Source: Bacilli bacterium (lineage in GTDB: Bacteria > Bacillota_I > Bacilli_A > RF39 > UBA660). From it: a stretch of 37,219 nt of DNA. How positions within the stretch are numbered: the first letter of the stretch is position 1; the number at the start of each line of letters is the position of its first letter. Positions 99-26,081 of the stretch are shown piece after piece. The notes below the pieces were generated by a model. The model searched no databases. It saw nothing but the letters and a program-made list of their open reading frames with translations, and was not told where the DNA came from. Both the position numbers and the translations under genes were made by a program. The DNA lies in NCBI GenBank assembly GCA_030602345.1, contig JAUVZX010000007.1:1-37219 (forward strand), written 5' to 3'.

Positions 99-128
99 AA
101 TAGTTTTTTATTTAGTGTGTACTTGACA
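99..128 (+). repeat. Possible right end of the IS3-like element
   Basis: The 30 bases after the transposase stop end in GTGTGTACTTGACA, whose reverse complement starts TGTCAAGTACACAC. A TG...CA terminus with this A/C-rich lead is the usual form of IS3-family inverted repeats, and the position straight after OrfB fits. The left inverted repeat is outside the window, so the exact boundary cannot be confirmed. It is a tentative call. Confidence 0.35.
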
Positions 129-191
129 GGTACTAGTATCTCACGTGTATTTTTATATAATATTATTATTACTCAAAAAAGGAGAAGAGAG

Positions 192-1379
192 ATGCGTTTA
201 GATCAATTAATAAAGAAAATAAGCAACTTAATATTAATAATACCGTTAGTATTAATTGTGGTATCATCGATCATGTTAATAAGCAGAGAACCCAAAAAAT
301 ATAGTAATATTGAAAATAGAAATTTAAAAAGTTTGCCTTCGTTTTCATTTGAAGATTTTTTTCAAGGAGAATATCAATCTGATTTAGAGAGTGCAATTGC
401 TGATCAATTTCCTTTGTCTCAAACTATAAAAAAGAATATGTTATCTTCGGAAAATTCAATTTCATATTACTTTAGTAATGTTGTAAATAAAATCATTGGG
501 TGTGAAAATAGATATGTGAAATTTTTAAAAAATTCCTATGTTTTTTCGTGTGACGATTATTTAATAAGGAGTCCGTTGGATATTGAAAAAAGGAAAAACG
601 ATTTATCTAAAACTCTTTTGCCACTTTCTAAAATCAATGCTTCAACAACTTTTTTATACATAAACTCAAGTGATAGCATAGATTTTTCAGAAGAAAAAAT
701 AAATGATAAGTTTTATGATTATATTGTGGAAAATTATTTTTTCGAAAACATTGATGAATTGGAAATAAAAGATTGGGATACATATAAAAAATATTATTAT
801 AAGACAGATCACCATTTAAATCATGTTGGCATTCAAAAGGCATATGAAAAAATAATAAGAATTTATGATATTCCTAGTGCAATTCAACCATTTAAAGAAA
901 TCGAATTCGAAGTAAATTTTGATGGCTCGAGAGCGAGAACTGAATCTTTCTATCTGTTTAAAGAAAACTTTAGAGTATATAAATATAATTTTTTCAATTT
1001 CGATACATATATAAATGGTGTGTTAAAACCTTACGGAAATTACGACAAATATTATAATTTTAAATATGATTCAACTGTTGGCGTAAATCATTATGGGAGT
1101 TTTTATGGGGGAGATGTAGGCGAATTGATTTATGATACAAAACGAAACGAACTTAAAAATATTTTGATAATCTCATCATCATTTTCTAATGCTTTAAATC
1201 CACTTGTTGCAAATCATTTCAATAAAACCTTCGTCATAGATCCTAGACATTATAGTAGAGATATGAACGAAGAATTTGATATTAATAATTATATAATCAA
1301 AAATGAAATAGATGAGGTTTTAATTTTCTTTGACATAACAGCTATTCTTGATGAAAAATTTATTTTGGAGGTAAAATAA
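192..1379 (+). CDS. DHHW/AlgJ-like SGNH-fold polysaccharide O-acyltransferase partner
   Basis: A 395-residue membrane-anchored extracytoplasmic protein. I chose the ATG at 192 because AAAGGAGAAGAGAG precedes it at good spacing; the frame stays open back to 117 but that part has no ribosome site. Residues about 12-32 form one N-terminal transmembrane anchor. The motif TDHHLN (D206-H207-H208) is the signature of DHHW-type proteins, and a later ISSSFSNAL has the look of the SGNH nucleophile block. In AlgJ/AlgX-type systems such a protein takes acyl groups passed across the membrane by an MBOAT protein and puts them on an exported polysaccharide. The next gene is exactly such an MBOAT, overlapping by one base (TAATG), so the pair is almost surely translated together. 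The glycan substrate is unknown; the nearby teichoic-acid genes make a wall polymer a reasonable guess. Confidence 0.75.
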   Translation: MRLDQLIKKISNLILIIPLVLIVVSSIMLISREPKKYSNIENRNLKSLPSFSFEDFFQGEYQSDLESAIADQFPLSQTIKKNMLSSENSISYYFSNVVNKIIGCENRYVKFLKNSYVFSCDDYLIRSPLDIEKRKNDLSKTLLPLSKINASTTFLYINSSDSIDFSEEKINDKFYDYIVENYFFENIDELEIKDWDTYKKYYYKTDHHLNHVGIQKAYEKIIRIYDIPSAIQPFKEIEFEVNFDGSRARTESFYLFKENFRVYKYNFFNFDTYINGVLKPYGNYDKYYNFKYDSTVGVNHYGSFYGGDVGELIYDTKRNELKNILIISSSFSNALNPLVANHFNKTFVIDPRHYSRDMNEEFDINNYIIKNEIDEVLIFFDITAILDEKFILEVK

Positions 1380-2779
1380 TGTTGTTTAGTAGTTTAGTAT
1401 TCATCTTTTTTTACCTTCCGCTTCTTATCTTTTTTTATTATATTTTTAAAAAAAGATCAATAAAAAATCTCATTTTATTAACATTTAGTTTATTTTTTTA
1501 CAGTTGGGGAGAACCAATTTATTTGTTTTTGATGCTTTTATCAATATCTTCTAACTATTTAATTGCGATTTTTTTGGATAAACATAGAAGCAATTTTAAT
1601 AAACATATGATGCTATTAGCAGTTGCTTTTAATGTTGGATTTTTATTTTATTTTAAATATTTCAATTTTTTTATAACAAATATTAATAATATTTTTTCTC
1701 TTAAAATAGAGTTTAATGAGGTTATGTTACCGATCGGTATTAGTTTCTATACATTTCAAATATTATCATATGTTATCGATGTATATAGAAAGAAAGTGGA
1801 ACCTCAAAAAAACATTTTAAATTTAGCGATGTATGTTTCGTTATTTCCACAGTTAATTGCTGGACCCATCGTCAGATATGAAACCGTAGAAAATGAAATT
1901 GTTAACCGCAGTGAAAATCTTGATGATTTTTTGGCAGGTTTCAAACGTTTTATAATTGGTTTAGGAAAGAAAGTATTGATTGCAAACAATATGGCATTGA
2001 TTGCAGATACCATAATGTCTAATGATATTTCAAGAATGAGCTCTCTTTGGCTGTGGATAGGAATTGTCGCTTATTCTTTTCAGATTTTTTTTGATTTTTC
2101 AGGTTATTCTGATATGGCGATTGGGCTAGGAAAAATGTTCGGTTTTAATTTTTTAGAGAACTTCAATTATCCATATATAGCAAAAAACATTACAGATTTT
2201 TGGAGAAGATGGCACATTTCACTATCGACATGGTTTAGAGATTATTTATATATACCTATGGGTGGAAATAAAGTTTCTCAATTTAAGTGGTATAGAAATA
2301 TATTTGTTGTTTGGTTAATAACGGGTTTGTGGCACGGTGCTAGTTGGAACTTTGTAATTTGGGGGCTTTATTTTGGAACAATATTGATTTTAGAAAAATA
2401 TTTCATAATAAAAATATTGCAATTGATACCAAATTTCTTTTCTCATTTTTACTCAATCATTCTAATTATAATAGGGTGGGTTATATTTAGATTAGAAGAT
2501 ATGTCTCTCGTTTTCACTTATTTAAAAGGCATGTTTTTTATTAATAAAAATGAATCGCTTTATTTTTATATGGAAAATTTAAACATAACTAATAGTTTTA
2601 TATATTTTATCCCAGCTATTATTTTATCTACACCATTAATAAAAAATATCATTGATAAAAATAAAGAAAATCAATTTTTCATTTTGCTTTACAACACGAG
2701 TTTAATTTTTATTTTTTTAATGTGTATTGCTAAATTGTTGACATCGTCGTACAATCCGTTTATATATTTTAGATTTTAA
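1379..2779 (+). CDS. MBOAT-family O-acyltransferase (AlgI/DltB-like)
   Basis: A 466-residue polytopic membrane protein of the membrane-bound O-acyltransferase family, close to the usual AlgI length. The hallmark blocks are present: LFPQLIAGPIVRY, then FWRRWHISLSTWFRDYLY with H279, then LWHGASWNFVIWG with the invariant histidine H319. These proteins move acyl groups, usually acetyl, from a cytoplasmic donor to an acceptor outside the membrane. It is co-translated with the DHHW/AlgJ-like gene upstream through a TAATG overlap. A strong terminator follows at once, so the two genes form a complete unit. AlgI-like acetylation is more likely than DltB-type D-alanylation because no DltA, DltC or DltD gene is nearby. 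Confidence 0.9.
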   Translation: MLFSSLVFIFFYLPLLIFFYYIFKKRSIKNLILLTFSLFFYSWGEPIYLFLMLLSISSNYLIAIFLDKHRSNFNKHMMLLAVAFNVGFLFYFKYFNFFITNINNIFSLKIEFNEVMLPIGISFYTFQILSYVIDVYRKKVEPQKNILNLAMYVSLFPQLIAGPIVRYETVENEIVNRSENLDDFLAGFKRFIIGLGKKVLIANNMALIADTIMSNDISRMSSLWLWIGIVAYSFQIFFDFSGYSDMAIGLGKMFGFNFLENFNYPYIAKNITDFWRRWHISLSTWFRDYLYIPMGGNKVSQFKWYRNIFVVWLITGLWHGASWNFVIWGLYFGTILILEKYFIIKILQLIPNFFSHFYSIILIIIGWVIFRLEDMSLVFTYLKGMFFINKNESLYFYMENLNITNSFIYFIPAIILSTPLIKNIIDKNKENQFFILLYNTSLIFIFLMCIAKLLTSSYNPFIYFRF

Positions 2780-2788
2780 CAAGTTTGT

Positions 2789-2817
2789 AAAAAAAATAGA
2801 GTCATCTCTATTTTTTT
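2789..2817 (+). terminator. Terminator after the MBOAT gene
   Basis: A hairpin ATAGAG-TCAT-CTCTAT (2796-2801 with 2806-2811), lengthened by A/T pairs, is followed by a run of seven T. It sits 10-40 bases after the MBOAT stop and separates that unit from the RNA gene downstream. Confidence 0.85.
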
Positions 2818-2823
2818 GTGCAT

Positions 2824-2850
2824 TTGAAAAAATAGCGAAAATATGATAAT
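2824..2850 (+). promoter_or_regulatory. Probable promoter of the OLE RNA
   Basis: TTGAAA at 2824-2829 and GATAAT at 2845-2850 have 15-base spacing, a little short of ideal; TATGAT at 2842-2847 overlaps it. The -10 element lies about 10 bases before the 5' strand of the closing helix of the RNA. Its place between a terminator and the RNA supports an independent transcript. Confidence 0.55.
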
Positions 2851-2859
2851 ATATATACA

Positions 2860-3437
2860 TAAATTAATGGCACATTATTCTAGTCATTAAATTTATTGTG
2901 AAGGTGGGGCTAAAAATCCACTAAAGGGCACATCTGTGAAACTTCTTGTGTTTGCTTCTTACGCCCAGTTTGGGGTGGATGCTGGAAGAAAGGTTAATGG
3001 GCGCTCGTAATGGCATACGACAACGACCCACTATCCGTGGAGACCTAGATTTGTAGTGAGCAGGACTTTATCACATCGTTGTGACTCATTACGACCTAGG
3101 AAGAACCTACTTTGTGGTTAACGCTATGAGTAGTGTAGCTTGTCTTGAGTGAGTGTATGGGAATATTTGAACAATCCTTTAAAATTTTAGCTAGATTTTA
3201 TTGGAATCGCGAATTGAAACTGTACTTGCAAAAAAGAATTAACAATAGATTATGTCGAGGAAAACTCCTAGAGTGTATTTAATTTAAGATTGTAGTGCGT
3301 ACTAAGTGGCAATCAAGTCATACGTGAGTATTAGTTTTTTTAAAGGGGAACCGCTATATTGGTAACGATAAGTAAAAACTAGGGAAATCCTACTTGACCT
3401 AAGACGTAAAGTTTATTAAATTAAGGCCATTAATTTA
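2860..3437 (+). ncRNA. ole: OLE RNA (ornate large extremophilic RNA)
   Basis: This fills the only long gap between genes in the window. It has no sustained reading frame, is visibly richer in G and C than the flanks, and is packed with helices. A 12-bp perfect closing helix pairs 2860-2871 with 3426-3437. Inside I see GTGG/CCAC (2904-2907 with 2918-2921), TGGG/CCCA (2998-3001 with 3027-3030) enclosing TCGTA/TACGA (3005-3009 with 3016-3020), an 8-bp helix 3053-3060 with 3085-3092 capped by TCACA/TGTGA (3071-3075 with 3080-3084), AACC/GGTT (3104-3107 with 3116-3119) and GCTA/TAGC (3123-3126 with 3136-3139). The size of about 580 nt matches OLE RNA, which is known as a membrane-associated RNA bound by OapA. 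A gene I identify as oapA lies 1.1 kb downstream. OLE RNPs are linked to tolerance of alcohols, cold and Mg2+. The assignment rests on size, structure and this neighbour, not on a model search. If wrong, it is still a large structured RNA. Confidence 0.85.
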
Positions 3438-3438
3438 C

Positions 3439-3461
3439 AAGAGAGATTATTCTCTTTTTTT
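3439..3461 (+). terminator. Terminator of the OLE RNA
   Basis: AGAGA-TTAT-TCTCT (3442-3446 with 3451-3455) followed by seven T, starting two bases after the closing helix of the RNA. It fixes the 3' end of the transcript at about 3460. The next promoter begins inside the end of the T-run. Confidence 0.85.
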
Positions 3462-3471
3462 GTGCTATAAT
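3461..3471 (+). promoter_or_regulatory. Extended -10 promoter of the acyltransferase gene
   Basis: TGTGCTATAAT with a perfect TATAAT at 3466-3471, 16 bases before the start codon at 3488. Any -35 region would lie inside the OLE terminator hairpin, so this promoter probably relies on its TG extended -10. The leader would be only about ten bases long. Confidence 0.65.
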
Positions 3472-3487
3472 TTGTTTGTGGTGATTT

Positions 3488-4480
3488 ATGGAAAAACGAA
3501 TAACGAATAATATAAAATTTTTAATGCTTTTCTTTGTTTTTGGAATTCATATTCTACTTAATTTCAGAGTGAATTCAAGTGAAACTTTTCCGATAATATA
3601 TAATTTAATAGAACTACTTTTAAGACCTTCAATAAACATTTTATTTATTATAACCGGTTATGGATTGATATCTAAATACTTTGAAAAGGATTACAAATAC
3701 TTTCTAAATAAATTCTTTTATTTTGCAATTGAATCAATCATATTTTTGATACTTTTAAAAGGGATACAATACATTTTGAATCATTATGATATTTTGGTTA
3801 TAAATTATTTTTCGCCTTGGTTTTTATTTACATATGTACTTGTACCTTTCATTTTAATGATATTAAAGTTTTTCAATGTTGATATAAATAAAATTAAATT
3901 TATGTTTTTGGCTTTTTTACCAATTTCTATACTATTAACCTTCGCTAATAACTCTCACACTGGTTTCATGCCATATCCACTAACTGTTTTGGAATATTTA
4001 CCGTTTGTATTCATGGGATATTTTTTAATTCCAAAGTTATTAAAAATGAATAATTTAAAATTTTTAATTCTAAGTTTTATATATATTATAATCAGTTTTT
4101 ATTTATATATGATTTTATCTCCGGGATTAAATAAAAATGAATATATTTACAATTATTTCTATCAGTATTTTAGTCCTCACGTTATTACATTGACTTTCTT
4201 TGAATTTATACTATTATATAATATGTTCAAAAAAATGAAAAAGATTAAAATAAACTTACCAACTTTAGAATTATATATTGTTTCCGGATACTCAATTGGG
4301 ATTATTGATTATTTTATATTTAACAATAGTCTTTTAAATAAAAACTATGAACCTGTTTTTAAAGTTTGGATAATATCTTTTATTTTTGGAATATTAGTCG
4401 CATACACTTTATCTAAAATATATAAATATTTGTACTATAAATATTTATACAACCACATTAAATTATATATTGAAATTTAA
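3488..4480 (+). CDS. Acyltransferase-3 family membrane protein
   Basis: A 330-residue protein made almost entirely of hydrophobic helices (about ten). It begins with NIKFLMLFFVFGIHI, which keeps the family pattern of a first helix ending in a conserved histidine, and then RPSINILFIITGYGL, the usual second-helix block of acyltransferase-3 (WecH/OafA-type) proteins. Such enzymes O-acylate surface glycans. It has its own promoter and a short leader with GGTGA before the ATG. It lies between OLE RNA and oapA, which are normally adjacent, so it may be an insertion between them. Its link to the wall-polymer genes on either side is a better guide to function than its place beside the RNA. The substrate is unknown. 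Confidence 0.7.
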   Translation: MEKRITNNIKFLMLFFVFGIHILLNFRVNSSETFPIIYNLIELLLRPSINILFIITGYGLISKYFEKDYKYFLNKFFYFAIESIIFLILLKGIQYILNHYDILVINYFSPWFLFTYVLVPFILMILKFFNVDINKIKFMFLAFLPISILLTFANNSHTGFMPYPLTVLEYLPFVFMGYFLIPKLLKMNNLKFLILSFIYIIISFYLYMILSPGLNKNEYIYNYFYQYFSPHVITLTFFEFILLYNMFKKMKKIKINLPTLELYIVSGYSIGIIDYFIFNNSLLNKNYEPVFKVWIISFIFGILVAYTLSKIYKYLYYKYLYNHIKLYIEI

Positions 4481-4484
4481 TTAT

Positions 4485-4495
4485 TATGCTATAAT
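4485..4495 (+). promoter_or_regulatory. Extended -10 promoter of oapA
   Basis: TATGCTATAAT, a perfect extended -10, lies 18 bases before the ATG at 4513 and directly before AGGAGAACAAA, the ribosome site. It means oapA can be transcribed without the OLE RNA unit. Confidence 0.7.
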
Positions 4496-4512
4496 TTGTT
4501 TAGGAGAACAAA

Positions 4513-5112
4513 ATGACAAAAGATAAAAAATATAAAGTTAAATTGGAAACAAGACTAAAAAAACAACCAAAAACGGCAACTGTAGACTACAAGTGGGTTA
4601 CTAAAATAATTATTTTAGCATTCATTATATCAATAATATTTGCTACATCTAGTGAACTATTAATAACTAATGTATCTGGTTTTATAGGAGTAATAGTTGT
4701 ATTAATATTTATTTTTATAGGGGCCTTATTTGATATGATTGGAGTAGCAATAGCATCCACAGAAGAAAAACCATTTCATTCAATGGCTTCAAAAAGGGTC
4801 CGAGGATCTAAAATGGCAATCAAACTTATACGAAACGCTCCTAAAGTATCATCTTTTTGTAACGATGTAATAGGGGACATCAGTGGTATTATATCTGGAT
4901 CAGCAGGAGTTACAATTGCAATCAAACTATCAGAAACACTAGGAACTAATCTAATACTAACCACATTAACTATCACTTCTATCATTGCAGCGCTTACAAT
5001 TGGAACAAAAGCTATAGGTAAGAGCTATGCTATAAACAAAAGTGAATATATAATTTATGAATTTTCAAAAATAATCTCATATTTCTATAAAGAAAAAGGT
5101 ATTACAAAATAA
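4513..5112 (+). CDS. oapA: OLE-associated membrane protein A
   Basis: A 199-residue protein with a basic N-terminus (residues 1-28, rich in K and R), then four hydrophobic helices at about 30-51, 55-82, 122-138 and 146-168. Between helices 2 and 3 lies a strikingly conserved-looking stretch: EEKPFHSMASKRVRG (85-98), KLIRNAPKVSSFCND (104-118) and GDISGIISGSAG (121-132). This arrangement resembles the DUF21 membrane domain of CNNM/CorC-type Mg2+ proteins. It matches what is known of OapA, a small four-helix basic protein that holds OLE RNA at the membrane. The RNA-binding role is inferred from the family and from the large RNA upstream. It has its own promoter, and a terminator overlaps its stop. 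If it is not OapA, it is a DUF21-like membrane protein. Confidence 0.8.
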   Translation: MTKDKKYKVKLETRLKKQPKTATVDYKWVTKIIILAFIISIIFATSSELLITNVSGFIGVIVVLIFIFIGALFDMIGVAIASTEEKPFHSMASKRVRGSKMAIKLIRNAPKVSSFCNDVIGDISGIISGSAGVTIAIKLSETLGTNLILTTLTITSIIAALTIGTKAIGKSYAINKSEYIIYEFSKIISYFYKEKGITK

Positions 5113-5128
5113 AAGTAATATCTTTTTT
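5097..5128 (+). terminator. Terminator overlapping the oapA stop codon
   Basis: AGGTATTAC (5097-5105) pairs with GTAATATCT (5115-5123), nine pairs with one G-T, followed by a run of T. The stop codon of oapA lies in the loop. Confidence 0.65.
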
Positions 5129-5149
5129 ATATTAAAAATAACTATATAA

Positions 5150-5160
5150 TATGTTATAAT
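5150..5160 (+). promoter_or_regulatory. Extended -10 promoter of the glycosyltransferase fusion gene
   Basis: TATGTTATAAT with TATAAT at 5155-5160, 36 bases before the ATG at 5197. AAAAAAGGAG provides the ribosome site. Confidence 0.65.
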
Positions 5161-5196
5161 TAATTAGCAATAATATTTTAAAAAAGGAGTATATAC

Positions 5197-7845
5197 ATGC
5201 AATATAAATATAAATTTTCTGTCGTAATGGCTATATATAATGTAGAAAAGTGGTTAGAAGAATCAATAAGTAGTATAATTAATCAAACATTGAATTTTGA
5301 AAGAGACGTTCAAATAATTTTAGTTAATGATGGAAGCACAGATAATTGTGAAGAAATATGTTTAAAATATGAAAAATTATATCCCAACAATATACTTTAT
5401 AAATTTAAAACAAATGGCGGACAAAGCTCGGCAAGAAATTTGGGAATAAAATTCGCTGAAGGTGAAATCATTAATTTTTTAGACCCCGATGATACTTTCC
5501 CTAAAGATACTTTTAAGGAAGTATATAGTTTTATGAAGAAGCATTGGGAGAGTATAGATTTTGTAACGTTACCGCTTTATTTTTTTGAAGCAAAAAAAGG
5601 ATTACATGGTAAATATAAAGATTTTGGAAATAAAAATAGAATAGTGGATTTGAGAGAAGAACCGCATAACTTTGTTTTATCTTCAGCGGCATCTTTTTAT
5701 AAAAAATCAAAAATTGAAAAATTAATGTTTGATGAGTCATTTAGTCATGCTGAAGATGCAGATTTTAATTTAAAATTATATTTGAAAAATCCAAAATTCG
5801 GTTTTGTTTGTGAAAATGAAGTTAAATATAACTATCGCCAAAGAAATGATAATAGTTCTATTGTTTCATCCGGTTCTAAAAAACCGCAAACTATAAGAAC
5901 AACGATTAAATTTATTCAAAAAATAGAAGATTTACAGTTTGATTATTTGTTTTTGAGAGAAATGGAAATTTATTTTATTAAAAATGATATCAAAAATATT
6001 GAAAAGAAAAATTTTTCAGACATTAATGAATATAACAGTATACTAAACATATTTAAAAATTTTATTTTAAGCATTGGAATAGACCGTGTTATTTCTGATT
6101 TATTTTGGTGTGAAAGTTTAGAAGAAAAGTTGATGATATTAAATTTCGTATCCCCGAATATAAAATTAGAGCTCGATGAAAAATTGAATGTCCTATATAC
6201 TACTCCCGAAAAAAGTCTAGCGTTAGGCAACATGTCCAAAGCAAAAATTGATGTTAGAAAAGTTAATTTAAAAAATAATATTCTTTTTATAGAACTAATA
6301 TATCATGATTTCGAAATAGAAAACATTGAGTTAATAATAAAAGATAATTTTAATAATCGCTTCAAACCGTATAAGAAGATAAAAACTAATTCTCCTTATG
6401 ATTTGAAAAGGGGGGAAGTTTTTCTTTCCAAAACTACCATATTATTTTATGAAGTTGATATATCTAAAGCGGAAAATTTGGATTTTTATTTTCAAATGAA
6501 TTCTAATGATCAGCATATTAAAAGAGTTAATTTTTCGGAAAGTTGTGTTTTTCACTTGAAAAATCAAAATTTATTTCTATTTAATAATAAATATTCTGTT
6601 ATTTTTAAGAAGGGCGTATTAATTATTAAAAGAGGTCCCCGCAGTCAAATTAAATACAATATCGTTTCCTTTATTAAGATTTGGAAAAAATATAAAAAGA
6701 GGACATTCTTTAGATTGTTAAATTCAAAAAGAAAAAAATATATTTTAATAATGGATCGTCCTAACGTTGCTGGAGATAATGGTGAAGCCATATTTAAATA
6801 TATTAGTAAATTAAGCAATAAAGAAAAGAAAAATTATTTCTTTGTAATTTCAAAAGAAAGTCCAGATTATCTTAGACTTAAAAAATATGGTAAAGTAATC
6901 GCGAAAAATAGTTTTATTCATAAATTTTTATACGTCAATTCTAAAATGATAATTACCTCGCATATCCATCCGCTATTCTATAAACCTTTTAGTAAAGCCC
7001 ATAATAAATATTATCTGGATATATTAAATTATAAACTTTTTTGGTTGCAACACGGAATAATAAAAGATGATTTGTCTTCTCAAACAAATAAATATATTCA
7101 TAACATAGATAGATTTGTAGTCTCGACAAGAGGTGAATTAGACGAAATTTCTCAAGAAAAATATCTGTATTTCAATAAAGAAATAATATTAACTGGCTTA
7201 CCTAGGTTCGATTTTTTGATTAATAATCCCAAAAATATAATAACAATTATTCCAACTTGGAGAAAAGAATTAAGCGGACCAATTCTTCCAAATGGACAGC
7301 ATTCTAAATTAAAAAACTTCGAACTTACTAATTATTATAAAAACTTTTCTTCATTATTGAAAAGCGAAAAATTGAAATCACTTTTAATTAAAAGTGATAT
7401 TAAAATCATTTTTGTTTTACATCCTGCCATGGATGAATATTATGATCACTTTGAAATTTTTAATAATGATGATATAAAAATAATTAAATCATGCGAAACC
7501 GTATACTCTAAGATTTTTGCGGAATCTAAGTTATTAATAACTGATTATTCAAGTGTTTTTTTCGACTTTGCATATTTGAAGAAACCAGAAATTTTCTTTC
7601 AATTTGATAAAGACATTTTTTTTGATAGCCACTATAAAAAGGGTAATTTCGACCATGAAAGAGATGCATTTGGTGATGTATTAACAACTGTAGATGAAGT
7701 CGTCGATAAAGTTGAATATTATATTAATAATAATTTTAAGATGGAAGATAAGTATATTGATAGGGTAGATAATACTTTTGCATATACTGACAGAAATAAT
7801 TGTAAACGAGTATATGAAGAAATATTAAAGTTAGATAAAGAATAA
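5197..7845 (+). CDS. Fused GT2 glycosyltransferase and CDP-glycerol glycerophosphotransferase (TagF-like)
   Basis: An 882-residue two-enzyme protein. Residues 1 to about 230 are a GT-A family 2 glycosyltransferase with VNDGSTD (43-49) and the metal-binding DPDD (96-99). A middle region of about 300 residues looks like the linker found in many teichoic-acid synthases. From about 500 to 880 is a TagF/TagB-type glycerophosphotransferase with LQHG (H619), LHPAMDEYYD (H742) and TDYSSVFFDFAYLKKP (D783), the blocks that bind CDP-glycerol. It would make or prime a poly(glycerol phosphate)-type wall polymer inside the cell. The TagG/TagH exporter genes follow at once, which supports a wall teichoic acid role. 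The polymer could carry ribitol instead of glycerol; sequence alone does not settle this. Confidence 0.88.
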   Translation: MQYKYKFSVVMAIYNVEKWLEESISSIINQTLNFERDVQIILVNDGSTDNCEEICLKYEKLYPNNILYKFKTNGGQSSARNLGIKFAEGEIINFLDPDDTFPKDTFKEVYSFMKKHWESIDFVTLPLYFFEAKKGLHGKYKDFGNKNRIVDLREEPHNFVLSSAASFYKKSKIEKLMFDESFSHAEDADFNLKLYLKNPKFGFVCENEVKYNYRQRNDNSSIVSSGSKKPQTIRTTIKFIQKIEDLQFDYLFLREMEIYFIKNDIKNIEKKNFSDINEYNSILNIFKNFILSIGIDRVISDLFWCESLEEKLMILNFVSPNIKLELDEKLNVLYTTPEKSLALGNMSKAKIDVRKVNLKNNILFIELIYHDFEIENIELIIKDNFNNRFKPYKKIKTNSPYDLKRGEVFLSKTTILFYEVDISKAENLDFYFQMNSNDQHIKRVNFSESCVFHLKNQNLFLFNNKYSVIFKKGVLIIKRGPRSQIKYNIVSFIKIWKKYKKRTFFRLLNSKRKKYILIMDRPNVAGDNGEAIFKYISKLSNKEKKNYFFVISKESPDYLRLKKYGKVIAKNSFIHKFLYVNSKMIITSHIHPLFYKPFSKAHNKYYLDILNYKLFWLQHGIIKDDLSSQTNKYIHNIDRFVVSTRGELDEISQEKYLYFNKEIILTGLPRFDFLINNPKNIITIIPTWRKELSGPILPNGQHSKLKNFELTNYYKNFSSLLKSEKLKSLLIKSDIKIIFVLHPAMDEYYDHFEIFNNDDIKIIKSCETVYSKIFAESKLLITDYSSVFFDFAYLKKPEIFFQFDKDIFFDSHYKKGNFDHERDAFGDVLTTVDEVVDKVEYYINNNFKMEDKYIDRVDNTFAYTDRNNCKRVYEEILKLDKE

Positions 7846-7849
7846 TAAT

Positions 7850-7860
7850 TATGTTAGAAT
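7850..7860 (+). promoter_or_regulatory. Extended -10 promoter of the exporter genes
   Basis: TATGTTAGAAT, one base off the motif shared by this window, 15 bases before the tagG-like ATG. The ribosome site AAGGTGA sits between. The exporter pair may thus be expressed apart from the fusion gene. Confidence 0.5.
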
Positions 7861-7875
7861 ATATAAGGTGATAAA

Positions 7876-8658
7876 ATGAAAAAATTTATAGATAATGTTA
7901 AAAAATATTATAGTTATGCGATTTATAGCGCTAAAAGCGAACTTAAAAGCGAGGTGGCTGGTTCTTATTTGAATTGGCTTTGGTGGATATTAGATCCGCT
8001 TGCTTTCATGATGATTTATACGTTTATAGTTACAATTGTTTTTAGGAGTAATGAACAATATTTCCCGGTATTTGTATTAATTGGTTTAACAACGTGGAAT
8101 TTCTTTAATTCTATGATTACAAGTAGTGTCAAAATAGTTAATAATAATAGAAATATTGTTTCTAAAATATATTTGCCTAAATACATATTAATAATTTCAA
8201 AATCATTTGTATTATTGTTTAAGATGAGTATATCATTTGCATTAATAATATTAATGATGATAGTTATGCAAATACCATTTTCATGGACTATTTTTCAATT
8301 TTTACCAATATTAATAGTTTTATATGTTATTACTTTTGGAATATCTAGTATATTATTGCATTTTGGTATTTTTGTAGAAGACTTGGCTAATTTAATGAAT
8401 ATAGTTTTAAAATTAATGTTTTATTTATCAGGAATATTTTATTCTATAGGAACAAGACTTCCTGTGCCATATAATTCATATTTTTTAAATTTTAATCCAG
8501 CGGCTTTAGTCATTGATTCATTTAGAAAAATATTGATTAATGGTAGTAATCCTGATTACTTATGGTTATTTATTTGGCTAATTATAGGTTTATTGTTAAC
8601 TATGATTGGTATTAATATAATCCATAAACACGAAAATAGTTATGCGAAGGTGATTTAA
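7876..8658 (+). CDS. tagG: Teichoic acid ABC exporter permease (TagG-like)
   Basis: A 260-residue ABC-2 type permease. A cytoplasmic, amphipathic start with KSELKSEVAGSYLNWLWWIL leads into about six transmembrane helices. That lead-in is typical of TagG/Wzm proteins. With the ATPase encoded next (one-base TAATG overlap) it would carry the lipid-linked polymer made by the preceding enzyme across the membrane. The same family exports other polysaccharides; the TagF-like neighbour is what favours teichoic acid. Confidence 0.85.
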   Translation: MKKFIDNVKKYYSYAIYSAKSELKSEVAGSYLNWLWWILDPLAFMMIYTFIVTIVFRSNEQYFPVFVLIGLTTWNFFNSMITSSVKIVNNNRNIVSKIYLPKYILIISKSFVLLFKMSISFALIILMMIVMQIPFSWTIFQFLPILIVLYVITFGISSILLHFGIFVEDLANLMNIVLKLMFYLSGIFYSIGTRLPVPYNSYFLNFNPAALVIDSFRKILINGSNPDYLWLFIWLIIGLLLTMIGINIIHKHENSYAKVI

Positions 8659-9395
8659 TGAAAAAAAGAGAAATAGCCCTTACAGTTAAAGATCTAAGAA
8701 TCACTTATAAGGGTTTGAAAAAGTTTTCAGTAAAAAAAGCTTTACTATCATTTAGAACAAGTAAAGCAGAAACTTTTGAAGCGTTAAGAGGAGTAAGTTT
8801 CGAACTTCAAAAAGGTAAAATATTGGGAATCATCGGAAAAAATGGTAGTGGTAAATCAACTATGCTAAGAGCAATTGCAGGAATATTTTCTCCTGATAAA
8901 GGAACAATTGATCTACACGGAAATAACGTTTCGCTATTATCTATTGGAGTAGGGTTCCAACCTAAACTAACCGGGCATGAAAATATATATTTATCAGGAA
9001 TGTTATTAGGTTTTAGTGAAGCAGAAATTAAAGCTAAATATAAAGAAATAGTAGAGTTTTCAGAATTAAAAGACTTTATTCATAAACCTGTGAAAACATA
9101 TTCAAGTGGTATGTATTCTAAATTAGCTTTCTCAGTAACTGCTATCTTAAAAACAGATATCATGTTAATTGATGAAGTATTAAGCGTTGGTGATGCAAAA
9201 TTCAAAGAAAAAAGTTATAACAAGATGAAAGAATTGATAAGTGATAAACATAGAACGGTTGTTATTGTTTCACATAATATTGATACTTTAGATGAACTTT
9301 GTAATGAAATACTATGGTTAGATGAAGGTAAAATTAAAATGTATGGTCCTTCTAAAAAAGTTTTAAAAGCGTATAAAGAATTTATGGCTAACTAA
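8658..9395 (+). CDS. tagH: Teichoic acid ABC exporter ATPase (TagH-like)
   Basis: A 245-residue ABC ATPase with Walker A GKNGSGKST (60-68), a signature YSSGMYSKLAFSV (148-160) and Walker B IMLIDEVLSVGD (168-179). The N-terminal spacing, with VKKALLSFRTSKAETFEAL before the first strand, is that of TagH/Wzt exporters. It lacks the long extracellular C-terminal part of Bacillus TagH and ends just after the nucleotide-binding domain, as many shorter homologues do. It pairs with the permease just upstream through a one-base overlap. Confidence 0.87.
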   Translation: MKKREIALTVKDLRITYKGLKKFSVKKALLSFRTSKAETFEALRGVSFELQKGKILGIIGKNGSGKSTMLRAIAGIFSPDKGTIDLHGNNVSLLSIGVGFQPKLTGHENIYLSGMLLGFSEAEIKAKYKEIVEFSELKDFIHKPVKTYSSGMYSKLAFSVTAILKTDIMLIDEVLSVGDAKFKEKSYNKMKELISDKHRTVVIVSHNIDTLDELCNEILWLDEGKIKMYGPSKKVLKAYKEFMAN

Positions 9396-9427: not shown

Positions 9428-9967
9428 ATGGAAATAAAAAACACTAAAACAGAAAAAAACTTACATGAAGCATTTAGAGGAGAAGCCGAAGCTTTTATAA
9501 AGTACCTTTTCTTCGCTTCTAGAGCTAAAAAAGATGGATATGAGCAAATAGCTGAGATATTCGACAAAACGGCTCTAAATGAAAAAGAACACGCTAAAAT
9601 ATGGTTTAAATTATTAAAGGGTGGTAAAGTTCCACATACACTTGATAATTTACAAGATTGTATTGATGGTGAAAACTATGAACACACTCAAATGTATGTT
9701 GACTTTGCTAAAGATGCTAAAGAAGAAGGATTTGATAAAATAGCAGAACTATTTTTAGGAGTAGCTAAAATTGAAAAAGAACATGAAGAAAGATACCAAC
9801 ATCTATATAATTTAGTTAAAGAAAATAAAGTTTTTGAAAAAGAAGACGAAATGATTTGGATATGTAGAAACTGTGGTAATGTTCATTATGGAAAACAAGC
9901 TCCTGAAATATGTCCGGTTTGTGATCATGAACAAGCATTCTATCAAATTTTAGTAGAGCAATATTAA
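9428..9967 (+). CDS. rbr: Rubrerythrin
   Basis: A 179-residue peroxide-scavenging non-haem iron protein. Residues 1 to about 135 are the four-helix di-iron domain, with glutamates in RGEAEAF (18-23), NEKEHAK (51-57) and KIEKEHEER (115-122). A C-terminal rubredoxin-like knuckle has C146-x2-C149 and C162-x2-C165. Rubrerythrin reduces hydrogen peroxide in anaerobes using electrons from reduced redox carriers. It is a single-gene unit with its own promoter and terminator. It is the clearest sign in the window of an oxygen-sensitive lifestyle. Confidence 0.95.
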
Positions 9968-10150: not shown

Positions 10151-10210
10151 TACTTTTATAGCAAAAAAACTTAAAATATGTTAATATAATTATTAGAAAT
10201 GGAGAAGTTC

Positions 10211-11575
10211 ATGGATATATTAAAAAAAATAAAAAATAATAAAATAGGATCTTTTAGTCCTTATGAAATAGAAGAATATCTAAACAATGTTACGGATTTA
10301 TATAATGATCCTATTTTAATTGAATTAGCTTCTTCAAAAGAAAAATATGAATTTTTATTGATGCCTATTTTAAAAAGAGATTATAATACCATTCTAGGTA
10401 AAATAAAAAACAACTTTAATCCAGAAAAATACTTCAAAAAACATATTAATATGTTAAACGAAAACAATATGATCTATGCTCATCAGTTAAAAAAGAAGAT
10501 AGAAACAATACTTGCATATACTATGCCAATTGAGTGTAAATGGTATATAAACTATCTAAAATATAAATATGAGAATTCTTTTGCTAAAAAAATTGATTTA
10601 TCTTTCTTTCCTTCGTTATCTCATTTTAATCATAAATTTGAATGGTCACAAGGATTATCTGTACAAGAAAAAAACCATCGAATAGGGATTATTAAAAACA
10701 GTAGGGGGTCTATATTGACTTCCAAAGGCAAACACTATATTTATATAAATTTACAAGAATATTATAAGGAAATTTTAAATTCGGGTCTTAACGATGCTAA
10801 TTTTGATTTAATAAATACCTTTTTCCACGAACTTACTCATGCAAAACAATTAAATCCTAGTTTCTCAAATAAACTCCATAGTTATAAAATAGACAAATCT
10901 TATTTTGCTTTAAACGCCTGTAAAAATGATAATAATTATAAGGAAAATTATGATTATTTTTATCATTATGCTTATCATGAATATGATGCCAGAATAAATG
11001 CGGCAGCTTTAGCAAAAAATGAAATAGAAAAATATAACTTTACCGGAAAAGAAGATTTGTTAAAAAAAGCAGATGATATAATACTATACAATTCATTATT
11101 TACTTTAAACAAAGCAAACAGTGAATTTGAAGATTTATTTGACTCTATAGCACATAAAAATGATCATTATGGGTATCCATTTGATTATAGTTTTGAATAT
11201 GATGAAAATTGGAAAAGAATGAGCTTAAGTGATTTTATGAATAAAAATTATAATCTAATCAAAGAAGACTTAGGTAATTACATTGCTCAAAGAATAATAG
11301 AAACTAATGATGAAGTAGCTTTATCAGAACAAATGGCCCTTATTAGTAATCAGCACCAAAGTATCGTTTTAAAGATTATAAAGGAAAGATTAAACGAAAT
11401 AGGTACTCATAAAGAATTAACTAATAGAGCTTTAAAAATTGAAGATATTAACACTAATATGCAGCTTATTGGTTTAGAAAAACTTCAATATTTAGATTCG
11501 TTAGAAGGATCATTAATCAATAAATTTAATACACTTAAAAAGGAGTATAACCATGAATTACATCGTCGTAAGTAA
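10211..11575 (+). CDS. Unrecognised protein with a zincin-type HEXXH motif
   Basis: I do not recognise this protein. I chose the ATG at 10211 (454 residues) because GGAG at 10201-10204 stands six bases before it; the ATG at 10199 lacks a ribosome site. It has no signal peptide and looks cytoplasmic. At residue 206 it has FFHELTHAKQLNPSF: HELTH fits the HEXXH zinc motif of metallopeptidases, and a downstream YHEYDARINAA could supply a third ligand. The flanks are K/N/Y-rich helices. The C-terminus overlaps holA by 23 bases, and the holA ribosome site AAGGAG lies within it, so the two are in one unit. Peptidase activity is an inference from one motif. Confidence 0.6.
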   Translation: MDILKKIKNNKIGSFSPYEIEEYLNNVTDLYNDPILIELASSKEKYEFLLMPILKRDYNTILGKIKNNFNPEKYFKKHINMLNENNMIYAHQLKKKIETILAYTMPIECKWYINYLKYKYENSFAKKIDLSFFPSLSHFNHKFEWSQGLSVQEKNHRIGIIKNSRGSILTSKGKHYIYINLQEYYKEILNSGLNDANFDLINTFFHELTHAKQLNPSFSNKLHSYKIDKSYFALNACKNDNNYKENYDYFYHYAYHEYDARINAAALAKNEIEKYNFTGKEDLLKKADDIILYNSLFTLNKANSEFEDLFDSIAHKNDHYGYPFDYSFEYDENWKRMSLSDFMNKNYNLIKEDLGNYIAQRIIETNDEVALSEQMALISNQHQSIVLKIIKERLNEIGTHKELTNRALKIEDINTNMQLIGLEKLQYLDSLEGSLINKFNTLKKEYNHELHRRK

Positions 11576-14978: not shown

Positions 14979-16076
14979 TTATGCTATTTTAACGCCTTTT
15001 TTATATACTTCTTTAATAATTCCTCCACCTAAACACAAATCATCCTTATAAAAGACACATGCTTGTCCTGGTGTTACTGCTTTAATTCCATTAGGATATT
15101 TAACTATTACTTCATCATTATGTTTTTCAATTATTACTTCTTGATCTGCTTGGCGATATCTAAATTTAGCTGTACAATTGGTTATTTCTTCTTCAATAAA
15201 CCAATTTAAATCAGATATAATCGCTGAATCACTAATTAAAAAGTCATTTTCTTCACCTGAAGCTACATATAATATATTATTAATAGTATCTTTTTTAACC
15301 ACGAATAATTTATCTTCATAGCCCCCTACTTCTAATCCTTTTCTTTGACCAAGAGTGTAGTACATTAAACCAATGTGTTTGCCTAATTTTTGATTATTTT
15401 CAATATGAATAATATCTCCAGCTTGGTTTGGTAAATAATTTTTCAAGAATTGTTTAAAATTTCTTTCTCCAATAAAGCAAATTCCAGTAGAATCTTTTTT
15501 ATCAGCAGTATATAAGTCATATTCATGCGCTATTTGTCTCACCTTTTGCTTATCTATATCTCCCAAAGGAAATAATACCTTAGGAAGAATAGAACTAGGT
15601 ATTTGAGATAGAAAATAAGATTGATCTTTATTTTTATCATAAGCTTTATATAATTTGTTATCTAATATCTTAGCATAGTGACCCGTTGCAATATAATCAG
15701 CACCTAATTTTAAAGCCTCTTTATAAAAAGCATCAAATTTAATATATTTATTACACATAATATCAGGATTAGGAGTTCTACCTCTTTTTAATTCTTCTAA
15801 AAAGTAATTAAAAACATGGTCCCAATATTCTTTAATGAAATCGACACGATAAAGAGGTATGCCTAATTTCTTGCATACTTCACTCGCATCATTATAATCT
15901 TGTTCTTGAGGACAAATTTCATCATTAACTGTTGGATTACCTAAATAATCATTATTTAAAGTACTATCCCAGTTTCTCATAAATAGTCCAATTACTTCAT
16001 ATCCTTGGTTTTTAAGGAGTAAAGCAGCAACACTGCTATCTACTCCACCGCTCATCCCAATTACTACTTTTTTCAT
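14979..16076 (-). CDS. mnmA: tRNA 2-thiouridine(34) synthase MnmA
   Basis: A 365-residue enzyme that puts sulfur on U34 of tRNA for Lys, Glu and Gln. It has the PP-loop SGGVDSS (9-15), the catalytic cysteine C108 in NPDIMCNKYIKF, and the second cysteine C200 in DSTGICFIGERNF. The C-terminal beta-barrel ends with AVTPGQACVFY. Length is standard. It starts three bases after the stop of the P-type ATPase gene, so the two are in one transcript, although their functions do not obviously join. Confidence 0.96.
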   Translation of the reverse strand: MKKVVIGMSGGVDSSVAALLLKNQGYEVIGLFMRNWDSTLNNDYLGNPTVNDEICPQEQDYNDASEVCKKLGIPLYRVDFIKEYWDHVFNYFLEELKRGRTPNPDIMCNKYIKFDAFYKEALKLGADYIATGHYAKILDNKLYKAYDKNKDQSYFLSQIPSSILPKVLFPLGDIDKQKVRQIAHEYDLYTADKKDSTGICFIGERNFKQFLKNYLPNQAGDIIHIENNQKLGKHIGLMYYTLGQRKGLEVGGYEDKLFVVKKDTINNILYVASGEENDFLISDSAIISDLNWFIEEEITNCTAKFRYRQADQEVIIEKHNDEVIVKYPNGIKAVTPGQACVFYKDDLCLGGGIIKEVYKKGVKIA

Positions 16077-16079
16077 ATG

Positions 16080-18731
16080 TCACCTACTTTTCATTTTTTT
16101 GTATGCTTCCATAATTACTATTAAAGGAATTCCTACTAATAATAAGATAAACCATGAATAAAGTGAGATTGGTTTAATATACAATACTTTATTCATAAAT
16201 GGTGTATACATCGCAAATAATTGTAACACTATTTGAGCTAAAAATCCATAGATAAGAACCTTGTTATCAAGAAGTGGTATTTTAAATAAAGACTTTCTTT
16301 CAGAACGACAATTAAGAACGTGGAAGTTTTGTAATATAAATAACGTTAATAATAATGTGGCTCTAGATTCATATAAACTCATATTTAATCCATAGTATAC
16401 AACTATCCATATAATTAAAGACAGTACTGCTATTACTGCACCTGATAATATTGTTTGTTCTAACATTTGACCATTGAATATATTTTCTTTTGGTGATCTT
16501 GGTTTTCTTTCCATCGCCTCTTTTTCACCTTTTTCAAATGCTAATGCAATATCTTGAATACCATTTGTAACTAAGTTTAACCATAATATTTGAGTTGGTA
16601 ATAAAGGGATCGGAGAACCCATTAATACCGCTGCTGCAAATATTAATAATTCTGCTATAGCTGTTGAGATAAGTAAATAAGTAACTTTTCTAAAATTGTC
16701 ATAAGCATATCTTCCTTCTTCAATACCATCGACAATTGACAAAAAATTATCGTCAGAAATAATCATTGAACTAGTTTGAATAGCAATGTCTGTTCCAGAT
16801 CCCATCGCTACACCAATATTGGCATTTTTTAAAGCTGGGGCATCGTTTACTCCATCGCCAGTAACTGCTACAAACTCTCCTAAATCTTTTAAAGTTTGAA
16901 CAATTAATTGTTTTTGATAAGGAGATACTCTTGCAAATACAATTGTCTCTTTAACTGTCTCCATTAGTTGTCTTTTATCATCAGCAATTAATTCGATATC
17001 TTTTCCTTCTTTAACACTGTTCATGTCAGAAATTATACCCATTTCTTTACCAATGTGATATGCAGTATCCTTTTGATCTCCTGTAATCATAATGACTTTA
17101 ATACCGGCTTTTTTACACTTATTAATAGCTTTATTTATATTTGGTCTTAAAGGATCTAAAAATGCTATTAAACCAAAGAATATTAAATCATCTATTTTAT
17201 CAATATCAGCTTCTTTAACATAGTTACCTGCAATCGCAAGTACTCTATAACCTTTTTTAGTCATTGAATATACTTGTTCCATAATTAATTTTTGATCAAT
17301 AGCTACAACCTGATCTTTTATTTGCATATATTTTGTTTTTTCCAATAAAGTTTCTGGGGCACCTTTTATTCCAACGAAAGTTTTATTTGTATCTTTATAG
17401 AATGCTGCAGAATACCTCTTTTCAGATTCATATGGAAGCATTCCAAATATTTCGTATTTATTTAGGACATTTTCTTTAGTAACGTTGTTTTTATAAGCCA
17501 TAGCTAAAAAGGCTATATCAATCGAATCACCATAATATTTCCATTCATTATTTTTCTTTTCAAGACTTGCTTCATTTGCTAATATTCCTATTTTACATAA
17601 TAATTGGAAATTATTGATACTATTGATATCTTTTGCTGATTCATTAACATATTTGATATTACCATCACCATGATAACCAAGTTCTGTCATCTCATAAATA
17701 CTACCATCTGGTAATATAACTTGTTTAGCAGTCTGTTCATTTAAAGTTAATGTTCCTGTTTTATCACTTGCTATTACTGTACAACTTCCTAATGATTCAA
17801 CCGCATTTAATTTTCTAACAATAACATTTTTCTTAGCCATTCTAACTGTTGCAATTGATAAAACTACTGTTAGAGCAATTGGTAAGCTTTCTGGTATTGC
17901 AGAAACACTCACCGTAATTGCAAAAGGAAATATTTCTGTAAATGGCATTCCTCTTAATAATAAAATAATTGCCATGAATGAAACAACAGAAAATATAAAA
18001 ATGCTTATTTGTTTAATAAACTTTTCAACCCTTATTACCAAAGGTGGTTTTTCTTGTTTGGTATTTTGTAAATTATCGGCTATTTTACCAACTTCAGTTT
18101 GAATTGATATAGCAACTACCACTCCTGTAGCACGACCATTTAAAATAGTTGATCCTGCATATAACATATTATTGTATGAAATATTTATATTTTGAGGTTC
18201 ATCCGTGTTAGTTTTATTAACAGGTTTACTTTCTCCCGTTAAAAAAGATTCATCTGAACTTAAATTAAAGCTTTCTAAAATTCTGACATCTGCAGGGACT
18301 TTATTACCTGCTTCTAAATAAACGATATCTCCTACTACTATTTCTTCTGAGTCAATAATTAATATTTCATTATTTCTTTTTACTTTCACTTTTTCTTTAA
18401 TTATTTCTTGAAGAGAAAATGCTTTTCTCTCTGCATTCCACTCTTGATGAGCACCAAGCAAAGCATTTAAAATAATTGCCACAAAAATAAATGTAGCATC
18501 GACTATTTCATCGATAAAAATAGACGCCACTCCCGCGAACGAAAGTATAATCATTAACGGAGTAATAAACTGCATTAAAAACATATTAATAAATGTTTTA
18601 GGTTTTTGTTTTGGAAGAATATTCTTTCCTTCATTCTGTTTTTCTAAAACAACAGATTCTTCTAATCCATTAAGATTTGTATTTAAAACTTCTAATAGTT
18701 TTTCTTTTCCAATTAATTGTATTTCTTTCAT
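16080..18731 (-). CDS. P2-type cation-transporting ATPase (Ca2+-ATPase-like)
   Basis: An 883-residue P-type ATPase, full length. TGES (165-168) is the dephosphorylation loop, D323 in SDKTGTLT is the phosphorylated residue, and GDGVNDAPALK closes the P domain. The transmembrane ion site shows PESLP (280-284) in place of the common PEGLP, and NLVTNGIQDIALAFEKGE in helix 6. This pattern is of bacterial P2A-type pumps related to SERCA and LMCA1, so Ca2+ export is likeliest. Mn2+ or other cations are possible. It begins with AGGAGGCTTTTATG. mnmA follows three bases downstream. Confidence 0.87.
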   Translation of the reverse strand: MKEIQLIGKEKLLEVLNTNLNGLEESVVLEKQNEGKNILPKQKPKTFINMFLMQFITPLMIILSFAGVASIFIDEIVDATFIFVAIILNALLGAHQEWNAERKAFSLQEIIKEKVKVKRNNEILIIDSEEIVVGDIVYLEAGNKVPADVRILESFNLSSDESFLTGESKPVNKTNTDEPQNINISYNNMLYAGSTILNGRATGVVVAISIQTEVGKIADNLQNTKQEKPPLVIRVEKFIKQISIFIFSVVSFMAIILLLRGMPFTEIFPFAITVSVSAIPESLPIALTVVLSIATVRMAKKNVIVRKLNAVESLGSCTVIASDKTGTLTLNEQTAKQVILPDGSIYEMTELGYHGDGNIKYVNESAKDINSINNFQLLCKIGILANEASLEKKNNEWKYYGDSIDIAFLAMAYKNNVTKENVLNKYEIFGMLPYESEKRYSAAFYKDTNKTFVGIKGAPETLLEKTKYMQIKDQVVAIDQKLIMEQVYSMTKKGYRVLAIAGNYVKEADIDKIDDLIFFGLIAFLDPLRPNINKAINKCKKAGIKVIMITGDQKDTAYHIGKEMGIISDMNSVKEGKDIELIADDKRQLMETVKETIVFARVSPYQKQLIVQTLKDLGEFVAVTGDGVNDAPALKNANIGVAMGSGTDIAIQTSSMIISDDNFLSIVDGIEEGRYAYDNFRKVTYLLISTAIAELLIFAAAVLMGSPIPLLPTQILWLNLVTNGIQDIALAFEKGEKEAMERKPRSPKENIFNGQMLEQTILSGAVIAVLSLIIWIVVYYGLNMSLYESRATLLLTLFILQNFHVLNCRSERKSLFKIPLLDNKVLIYGFLAQIVLQLFAMYTPFMNKVLYIKPISLYSWFILLLVGIPLIVIMEAYKKMKSR

Positions 18732-18783
18732 AAAAGCCTCCTATTATATTATAACATAAAGTGTAGTTTTTCATTTTAATCTG

Positions 18784-18792
18784 TGGTATAAT
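18784..18792 (+). promoter_or_regulatory. Extended -10 promoter of the small membrane protein gene
   Basis: TGGTATAAT with TATAAT at 18787-18792, 20 bases before an ATG that also has TGGAGG as its ribosome site. Promoter, ribosome site and reading frame together argue that the short gene is real. Confidence 0.65.
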
Positions 18793-18812
18793 TTATTTTG
18801 TGGAGGTAAAGT

Positions 18813-18923
18813 ATGAGTAAAATCAAGCCTAAGAAAAGAAAAATAAACTATATGGCTATATTTGCATTAATAATCATGTTAATTGCTACTATTTTGCCAA
18901 TAATTGCTGTTGTAATGAATTAA
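18813..18923 (+). CDS. 36-residue single-pass membrane protein
   Basis: A very short gene: a basic head MSKIKPKKRK followed by one hydrophobic helix (about 14-35) and an asparagine at the end. A TGGTATAAT promoter, TGGAGG seven bases upstream of the ATG, and a clean terminator right after the stop all support it. It resembles in form the tiny basic/one-helix proteins of Bacillota such as the DUF4044 or Prli42 groups, but sequence of this length cannot settle the family. Function is unknown. It lies opposite to the genes around it. Confidence 0.65.
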   Translation: MSKIKPKKRKINYMAIFALIIMLIATILPIIAVVMN

Positions 18924-18947
18924 AAAAAGAGTTAAAACTCTTTTTTT
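18922..18947. terminator. Bidirectional terminator between the small gene and xseB
   Basis: AGAGT-TAAA-ACTCT (18928-18932 with 18937-18941), flanked by A7 and T7. It serves the 36-codon gene on + and the nusB-xseA-xseB unit on -. Confidence 0.85.
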
Positions 18948-19161
18948 AGTTATTAGGAACAAAATCTTCTAATTTTCCATCAACTAATATTTTATTAATT
19001 TGTTCCTCGGCATTTGCTAGATACTCATTACATTCTTTAGCAATAGCCATTGCTTTAGTATATTTAGAAATGGCAGAATCTAAGTCTAGATCTCCTTTTT
19101 CTAAATCTTTAACTAAATCTTCTAATTCTGTTAATTTTTCTTCTAAATTAAATTTTTTCAT
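18946..19161 (-). CDS. xseB: Exodeoxyribonuclease VII small subunit
   Basis: A 71-residue helical protein with the family start FNLEEKLTELEDLVKDLEKG and a second helix with SAISKYTKAMAIAKECNEYL. It binds several-fold to XseA to form the nuclease that degrades single-stranded DNA. Its start codon lies 14 bases inside xseA and follows GGAGGAAATAA, so translation is coupled. It is the last gene of nusB-xseA-xseB. Confidence 0.93.
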   Translation of the reverse strand: MKKFNLEEKLTELEDLVKDLEKGDLDLDSAISKYTKAMAIAKECNEYLANAEEQINKILVDGKLEDFVPNN

Positions 19162-20350: not shown

Positions 20351-20358
20351 AGCAACCT

Positions 20359-20751
20359 CTATTTTTCATTGTATATTTTATCTAAAGCCGCATTAATCAT
20401 TTTTCTAACTTCGTCATCACTATAATTTTTAGCAAGTTCTACCGCTTCATTAATTGCTACTATATCAGGAGTATCTGTATATAATAATTCATATACACCC
20501 ATGCGAATAATCGCTTGATCAGTATTACCCAAACGATCAATCGTCCAATTAGTTAAAGCTTTATTAGCTATTTCATCTAATTCATTTTGGTGTGTAATAA
20601 CACCATATACTATATCTTTAACAAATTCGTTTTCAATTTCTACTACTTCTTTTATTATTTGTTCAATTTCATAAGAAATCTTATTTTTTTGATAAACGTT
20701 TACTTGATACAAAATGGTCATAATTAATTTTCTTAATTCACTTCTATTCAT
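20359..20751 (-). CDS. nusB: Transcription antitermination factor NusB
   Basis: A 130-residue all-helical protein of usual length. It has MNRSELRKLIMTILYQVN at the start and the family C-terminal block AIIRMGVYELLYTDTPDIVAINEAVELAKNYSDD. NusB with NusE binds boxA of rRNA transcripts. It heads the nusB-xseA-xseB unit, with its own promoter right after the mutS terminator. Confidence 0.95.
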   Translation of the reverse strand: MNRSELRKLIMTILYQVNVYQKNKISYEIEQIIKEVVEIENEFVKDIVYGVITHQNELDEIANKALTNWTIDRLGNTDQAIIRMGVYELLYTDTPDIVAINEAVELAKNYSDDEVRKMINAALDKIYNEK

Positions 20752-20755
20752 CTAA

Positions 20756-20778
20756 ATCACCTACTTAATTTTAACATA
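20756..20778 (-). promoter_or_regulatory. Promoter and ribosome site of nusB, shared word-for-word with mutS
   Basis: On the minus strand TATGTTAAAAT (20778-20768) is an extended -10 and TAGGTGAT is the ribosome site. The 21 bases 20756-20776 are identical to 23350-23370 before mutS, covering both -10 and ribosome site. Confidence 0.6.
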
Positions 20779-20793
20779 AAAGACTATAAAATA

Positions 20794-20820: not shown

Positions 20821-20823
20821 TTG

Positions 20824-26075: not shown

Positions 26076-26081
26076 ATGCAT

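Follow-up and report, generated by a model that had tools for sequence, protein, structure and literature searches.

The stretch of DNA analysed here (37,219 nucleotides, referred to as the window) carries near its start an OLE RNA gene, ole, on the forward strand (2851–3446). The window was compared by cmscan with 4,227 RNA families, also at E ≤ 0.1. The OLE model RF01071 matched positions 2851–3446 over its full length (model positions 1–616 of 616) with 386.7 bits against a gathering threshold of 50 (E = 2.5e-110), and the only other element found in this search was one tRNA. A sequence-only reading of this DNA had proposed a complete OLE RNA gene, and the Rfam search that it suggested confirmed the proposal. 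It is the single OLE in the 760,795-bp genome, which consists of 11 contigs and is 98.83% complete. The GC content of the OLE stretch is 36.6% compared with 26.4% for the window, and an exact 12-bp helix between 2860–2871 (UAAAUUAAUGGC) and 3426–3437 (GCCAUUAAUUUA) closes a span of 578 nt; both the GC-richer stretch and the perfect helix had been noticed in the earlier reading. When folded from its letters alone, the OLE stretch was more stable than shuffled versions (z = −2.5), none of 100 shuffles being as stable.

The claim that the gene has its own promoter and terminator stood in part: candidates for both are present, but both are weak and the promoter does not rise above chance. The candidate promoter, TTGAAA-17-TAATAT with a TG before the second hexamer (2824–2852, forward strand), is plausible but non-significant, as the region holds 20 promoter-type matches against 13.6 ± 4.4 expected. 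The candidate intrinsic terminator (3439–3461, forward strand), read from the sequence, has an AT-rich 6-bp stem formed by AAGAGA (3439–3444) and TCTCTT (3451–3456) followed by a T run, and it is missing from the strict scan list because the stem has only two G–C pairs. In this AT-rich sequence the promoter and terminator scan is uninformative.

Downstream on the same strand lie a gene for an acyltransferase-3-like membrane protein (3488–4480, PF01757 match below the cut-off), which is not part of the ribonucleoprotein, and oapA (4513–5112), which encodes a 199-aa CNNM-like membrane protein. Between the RNA and the start of oapA there are 1,066 bp, with this one gene in the gap, in agreement with the 1.1 kb noted earlier for an OapA-like gene. 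No relative of the inserted acyltransferase was found in the 64 other family ole loci or in 80 oapA loci. The inserted gene and the weak promoter and terminator are among the points counted against the best explanation, in which a genuine OLE RNA gene works together with OapA; we are nonetheless highly confident of this explanation.

The window OapA is 38–56% identical to 33 aligned OapA proteins from Bacilli and Clostridia, and its signature FCNDVIGD, with the OapA DxxxD motif, is invariant in 34 aligned OapA sequences. Pfam gave a CNNM match only, which is below threshold and in line with the remote relationship of OapA to CNNM domains described earlier (PMC11332333). Comparison with solved structures by sequence gave no match, while for the AlphaFold model (pLDDT 88.9) the only credible solved neighbour was the archaeal CNNM protein MtCorB (probability 1.00, TM about 0.5), to whose CNNM domain the predicted fold is nearest. 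In contrast to the CNNM proteins MpfA and CorB, the window protein has no CBS or CorC domain, carries the DxxxD motif and is encoded beside ole. In public genomes, OLE lies within 5 kb upstream of OapA in 75 of 80 OapA loci, once as a contig-end fragment. Of the five loci without a nearby ole, three belong to genomes that carry OLE elsewhere and a fourth lies at a contig end. The fifth, L048, is unexplained; its OapA gene (5001–5510) has 5 kb of sequence upstream, and no OLE was found in its 900-kb, possibly incomplete, genome.

In Bacillaceae, nusB–xseA is located 2–5 kb upstream of ole–oapA, and the order mutS–nusB–xseA–ole–oapA–...–mnmA is seen in one genome of the family (G045, locus L165). 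The window contains this ancestral neighbourhood without ole: mnmA, a P-type Ca2+-type ATPase gene, xseA, nusB and mutS occupy 14979–23346 on the reverse strand, the ATPase gene fills the ole slot, and ole–oapA lies at a distance of 16 kb, surrounded by teichoic-acid and acyltransferase genes. Judging from gene order, it is most likely that ole and oapA were relocated together and that the acyltransferase gene entered between them. The surrounding envelope-polymer island (117–9395) encodes a DHHW protein, a DltB-like MBOAT protein, acyltransferase 3, an 882-aa GT2–TagF fusion, an ABC-2 permease and a TagH-like ATPase. As ole–oapA is flanked by the DltB-like MBOAT operon and the GT2–TagF/TagG/TagH genes, and cell-wall genes are among the published ole neighbours (PMC12265935), the locus might mainly serve the adjoining envelope-polymer genes (teichoic-acid export and polymerase, DltB-like acyltransferase), with OLE as a cell-wall-specific regulator. 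We consider this unlikely, since the neighbourhood is essentially unconserved: among 64 other family loci, TagF/TagG/TagH genes are downstream in one (G026) and MBOAT/DHHW genes upstream in one (G047). A rubrerythrin gene (9428–9967) lies downstream of oapA in the window; rubrerythrin occurs within about 6 kb downstream of ole–oapA in 8 of 65 family loci and may be a recurrent neighbour. Further on, a 458-aa protein without a Pfam match (10199–11575) is encoded between tRNA-Met and DNA polymerase III delta.

The structure of the RNA was analysed in an alignment, made by sequence, of 83 non-redundant OLE RNAs longer than 540 nt. Forty-six are from the family, one per genus, and 37 come from Bacillota loci located via OapA, part of them again from the family of the window host. 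The pair model of 173 pairs consists of the Rfam pairs with P1/P2 and P3 added by hand. Covariation, which had been named as a check on the fold, was strong: 84.0% of cells were paired (173 pairs, 83 RNAs) compared with 41–46% when the partners were slid, double-sided changes occurred in 149 of the 173 pairs, and none of 500 shuffles was as high on any measure. Because the alignment was made by sequence and the structure was taken from Rfam, the test favours the Rfam structure over its slid versions. P1/P2 and P3, which are outside the Rfam structure, still covary. For the closing helix P1/P2 (5′ strand 2860–2871, partner 3426–3437), 11 of 12 pairs show double changes and 70.5% of cells are paired; for the 13-bp P3/P3.1 (5′ strand 2885–2899, partner 3242–3254), all 13 pairs covary within the family and 84.9% of cells are paired. 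P3 has 13–14 predicted base pairs in most of the 83 RNAs and the length of its 5′ strand has an SD of 0.8 nt, compared with 6–13 nt for P7, P8 and the tip of P9. P3 is the proposed membrane-spanning helix (PMC12265935), and its steady length fits, but does not prove, a length limit of the sort that crossing the membrane would impose.

Both P7 (3044–3100, a 57-nt region) and P8 (3107–3133, 27 nt) are present, so that the window RNA is not the published variant 2. Domain 2 (3278–3425), in which P numbers were assigned here from published descriptions, comprises the P12/P12.1/P12.2 stack, with 94.9–100% of its cells paired, and two distal arms. Its P13 hairpin, AUAC-GUGA-GUAU (3320–3331), is truncated to 12 nt, the shortest among the 83 RNAs (usual length 21 nt), and the P11 columns are empty. 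Together with the missing OapB and OapC (see below), the short P13 and the absent P11 might suggest that ole is decaying to a non-functional relic in a reduced genome. This pseudogene reading was considered and rejected as very unlikely: P11 is missing in almost all members of the family, none of the 153 positions with at least 95% conservation among the other 82 RNAs has been lost, the helices pair, and oapA, which is intact and retains its signature, appears to have moved together with ole at the rearrangement. The window RNA also matches 166 of the 184 positions that are invariant in 15 Bacillaceae and Clostridia RNAs. A different class of large structured RNA (GOLLD, ROOL, HEARO, raiA), favoured by general size and structure only, has practically no chance of being correct, as it is refuted by the Rfam OLE match, cmscan giving only OLE and the tRNA, and as the partner protein is OapA.

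The A-rich loop of P4 and the kissing loops of P5.1 and P6.1 are published dimer contacts (PMC12265935); the RNA dimer as well as the roles of P3 and OapA were described in two papers (PMC12286853, PMC12265935). All three contacts are kept in the window RNA, on the forward strand like the other elements of the RNA: the P4 hairpin (2903–2922, 93.2% of cells paired) has the A-rich loop GCUAAAAA, P5/P5.1 (2942–2988) carries the conserved kissing loop GCCCA (2963–2967) in L5.1, and P6/P6.1 (2992–3036), with P6.1 100% paired, has the near-invariant kissing loop AUGGCA (3010–3015), which contains the GGCA of L6.1. The P9 arm (3142–3238) ends in the palindromic loop UAGCUA (3188–3193), a predicted symmetric RNA–RNA kissing contact. 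At these exact columns, 71 of 78 RNAs have a self-complementary tetranucleotide in the P9 loop (GGCC in 44, GUAC in 14, and AGCU, the type of the window, in 13), compared with 1–13% at neighbouring offsets. The remaining seven loops mostly have a palindrome shifted by at least one base (e.g., GUCGAC, GUGCAC, UCGCGA, GGGCCC). Within a single molecule, neighbouring bases of so tight a loop are unable to pair with one another, which favours symmetric RNA–RNA pairing, and the palindrome, as a pattern in aligned sequences, supports an RNA dimer. The palindromes GGCC, GAUC and AGCU were described by Kretsch et al. (PMC12286853), and GUAC, the second commonest type, is an addition to them. The P9 arm is missing in 5 of the 83 RNAs and in most short-form RNAs, and the contact seems dispensable in some lineages. 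P9-less RNAs with mostly kept structure are found at loci L157 (G026), L170 (G027), L171 (G049), L041 and L007.

The distribution of OLE was examined in 98 genomes from 98 genera of the family. OLE was found in 65 genera and OapA in 65, with both in 63, neither in 31 and only four discordant (Fisher p = 8e-21, ignoring shared ancestry). In three discordant genomes (G018, G084, G086) the gene is at a contig end, while G034 has no such explanation. In the order sample OLE was present in 79 of 117 genomes, every genome listed for the order belonging to one family. One genome (G025) gave two OLE matches (L152 and L210), one full with 413.6 bits and one partial with 154.4 bits (model positions 54–595); the partial match is near a contig end and reflects either a duplicate or a mixed assembly (4% contamination).

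A search of the genome for OapB and OapC had been suggested earlier, and both are absent from the window genome and from all 98 sampled. The OapB query was an alignment of sequences from five control genomes that carry OLE, each of which yielded OapB, and the seed of the alignment was verified by its match to PDB 7k9b, "OLE-associated protein B"; this query gave no match in the 98 family genomes, the window genome included. Proteins of the L7Ae group, to which OapC and YlxQ belong, were likewise found in none of these 98 genomes, the B. subtilis control being positive. The window genome does encode bS21. OapB and OapC are essential in H. halodurans, not in all clades, and are not defining of OLE. 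OapB binds P13 together with P12.2 in other species (PMC9723947, PMC12265935). The usual 21-nt P13 is nevertheless kept in 34 of the 46 family RNAs, and since OapB is in no sampled family genome, the P13 site either decays slowly or has another use. PF03471, the CorC/HlyC domain of MpfA, was found in none of the 98 genomes, the window genome included, and complete CNNM domains are present in only four (G015, G045, G057, G088), three of which also carry OLE. These counts show no inverse relation between OLE and MpfA in the family. MpfA as a replacement for OLE was therefore rejected for the family, as its OLE-less genera gained no MpfA; this restricts how far MpfA can be regarded as a general substitute for OLE. 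The published phylum-wide anticorrelation of OLE and MpfA (PMC11332333) is not contradicted by this family result.

The description of the host as a reduced, AT-rich, Mollicutes-like genome holds in its first two terms and not in the third. The genome has two penicillin-binding transpeptidase genes as well as FtsW/RodA, TagF/TagG/TagH-like and DltB-like genes; TGA is used once, as a stop, the standard code leaves long frames open, and an alternative genetic code was rejected because TGA is not read as sense. These features indicate a member of the Bacillota that has a cell wall and uses the standard code. The rubrerythrin gene suggests an anaerobe, and the host is probably anaerobic. Named relatives are metagenome-assembled genomes called Bacilli, Tenericutes or Mollicutes, several from ruminant or deer guts by name. 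Taken with PMC11332333, these relatives suggest that the host belongs to GTDB order RF39. The window also carries competence and pilus genes (24774–34629) for a PilB/GspE/ComGA-like ATPase, a 754-aa T2SSF-domain protein, a prepilin peptidase and a ComEC-like protein, and natural transformation may have been retained in this 0.76-Mb genome.

Anaerobic hosts are a standard habitat of OLE. The earlier proposal that OLE in a reduced host would need a different rationale is thus not sustained: no special rationale is required for a walled, probably anaerobic host, and OLE is no surprise here, being common in the family (65 of 98 genera) and published in reduced-genome, probably symbiotic gut lineages. 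Fernando and Breaker (2024, PMC11332333) described OLE in gut symbionts of the RF39 and TANB77 groups of Bacillota, which have reduced genomes and mostly lack OapB and OapC, and they named the short OLE variants 1 and 2. The window RNA shares with these TANB77 and RF39 variants a reduced-genome host and the lack of OapB and OapC, and with variant 1 the loss of the P13 end, but its P7, P8 and P9 are full-size. The length of OLE in the 65 genera is bimodal: 47 have the long RNA (534–617 nt), 16 a short form of 470–519 nt without P7 and P8, and two are partial. With the OLE of H. halodurans and C. acetobutylicum (RF01071) the window RNA shares the whole model, helices, conserved nucleotides, dimer-contact loops and a downstream OapA, and it differs in the absent P11, the 12-nt P13, AU-rich helices and AGCU instead of the common GGCC in P9. 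The all-or-none pairing of ole and oapA per genus, the uniform absence of OapB, OapC and CorC-type MpfA in the family, the finding that the long form predominates there, the loop type GUAC, the relocation away from nusB–xseA, the frequency of the P9 palindrome, the shortest P13 and the lack of MpfA gain after OLE loss seem to be new relative to the literature consulted.

For a bona fide OLE working with OapA, we infer dimerisation in the cell, a membrane location and a metal or stress function as follows. The RNA would be made from its own candidate promoter and fold into two domains, and it would dimerise through the P4 A-rich loop, the P5.1–P6.1 kissing loops and the self-complementary P9 loop UAGCUA. 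OapA dimers would attach to the RNA at P2/P4a and hold it in the membrane, and the 13-bp P3 helix would lie at the bilayer or cross it. The resulting particle would be a stress and divalent-metal device like its H. halodurans counterpart, and in the order it would be reduced to RNA and OapA, perhaps with bS21, and without OapB or OapC. On balance, we favour the wider proposition of a stripped two-part OLE in the order, consisting of a symmetric RNA dimer and OapA without OapB, OapC or CorC-type MpfA, which is kept or lost whole together with OapA, whose P9 switches freely among palindromes and whose OapB docking hairpin decays at rates that differ by genus.

To our knowledge, few conserved bacterial RNAs whose biochemical function has yet to be established are as large as OLE. 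What survived genome reduction is the RNA core, the dimer contacts, the P3 helix and OapA, and not OapB or OapC, and these surviving parts suggest a minimal particle suitable for reconstitution in vitro. The switching of the P9 palindrome would moreover provide independent evolutionary evidence that the RNA–RNA dimer seen by cryo-EM is used in the cell.
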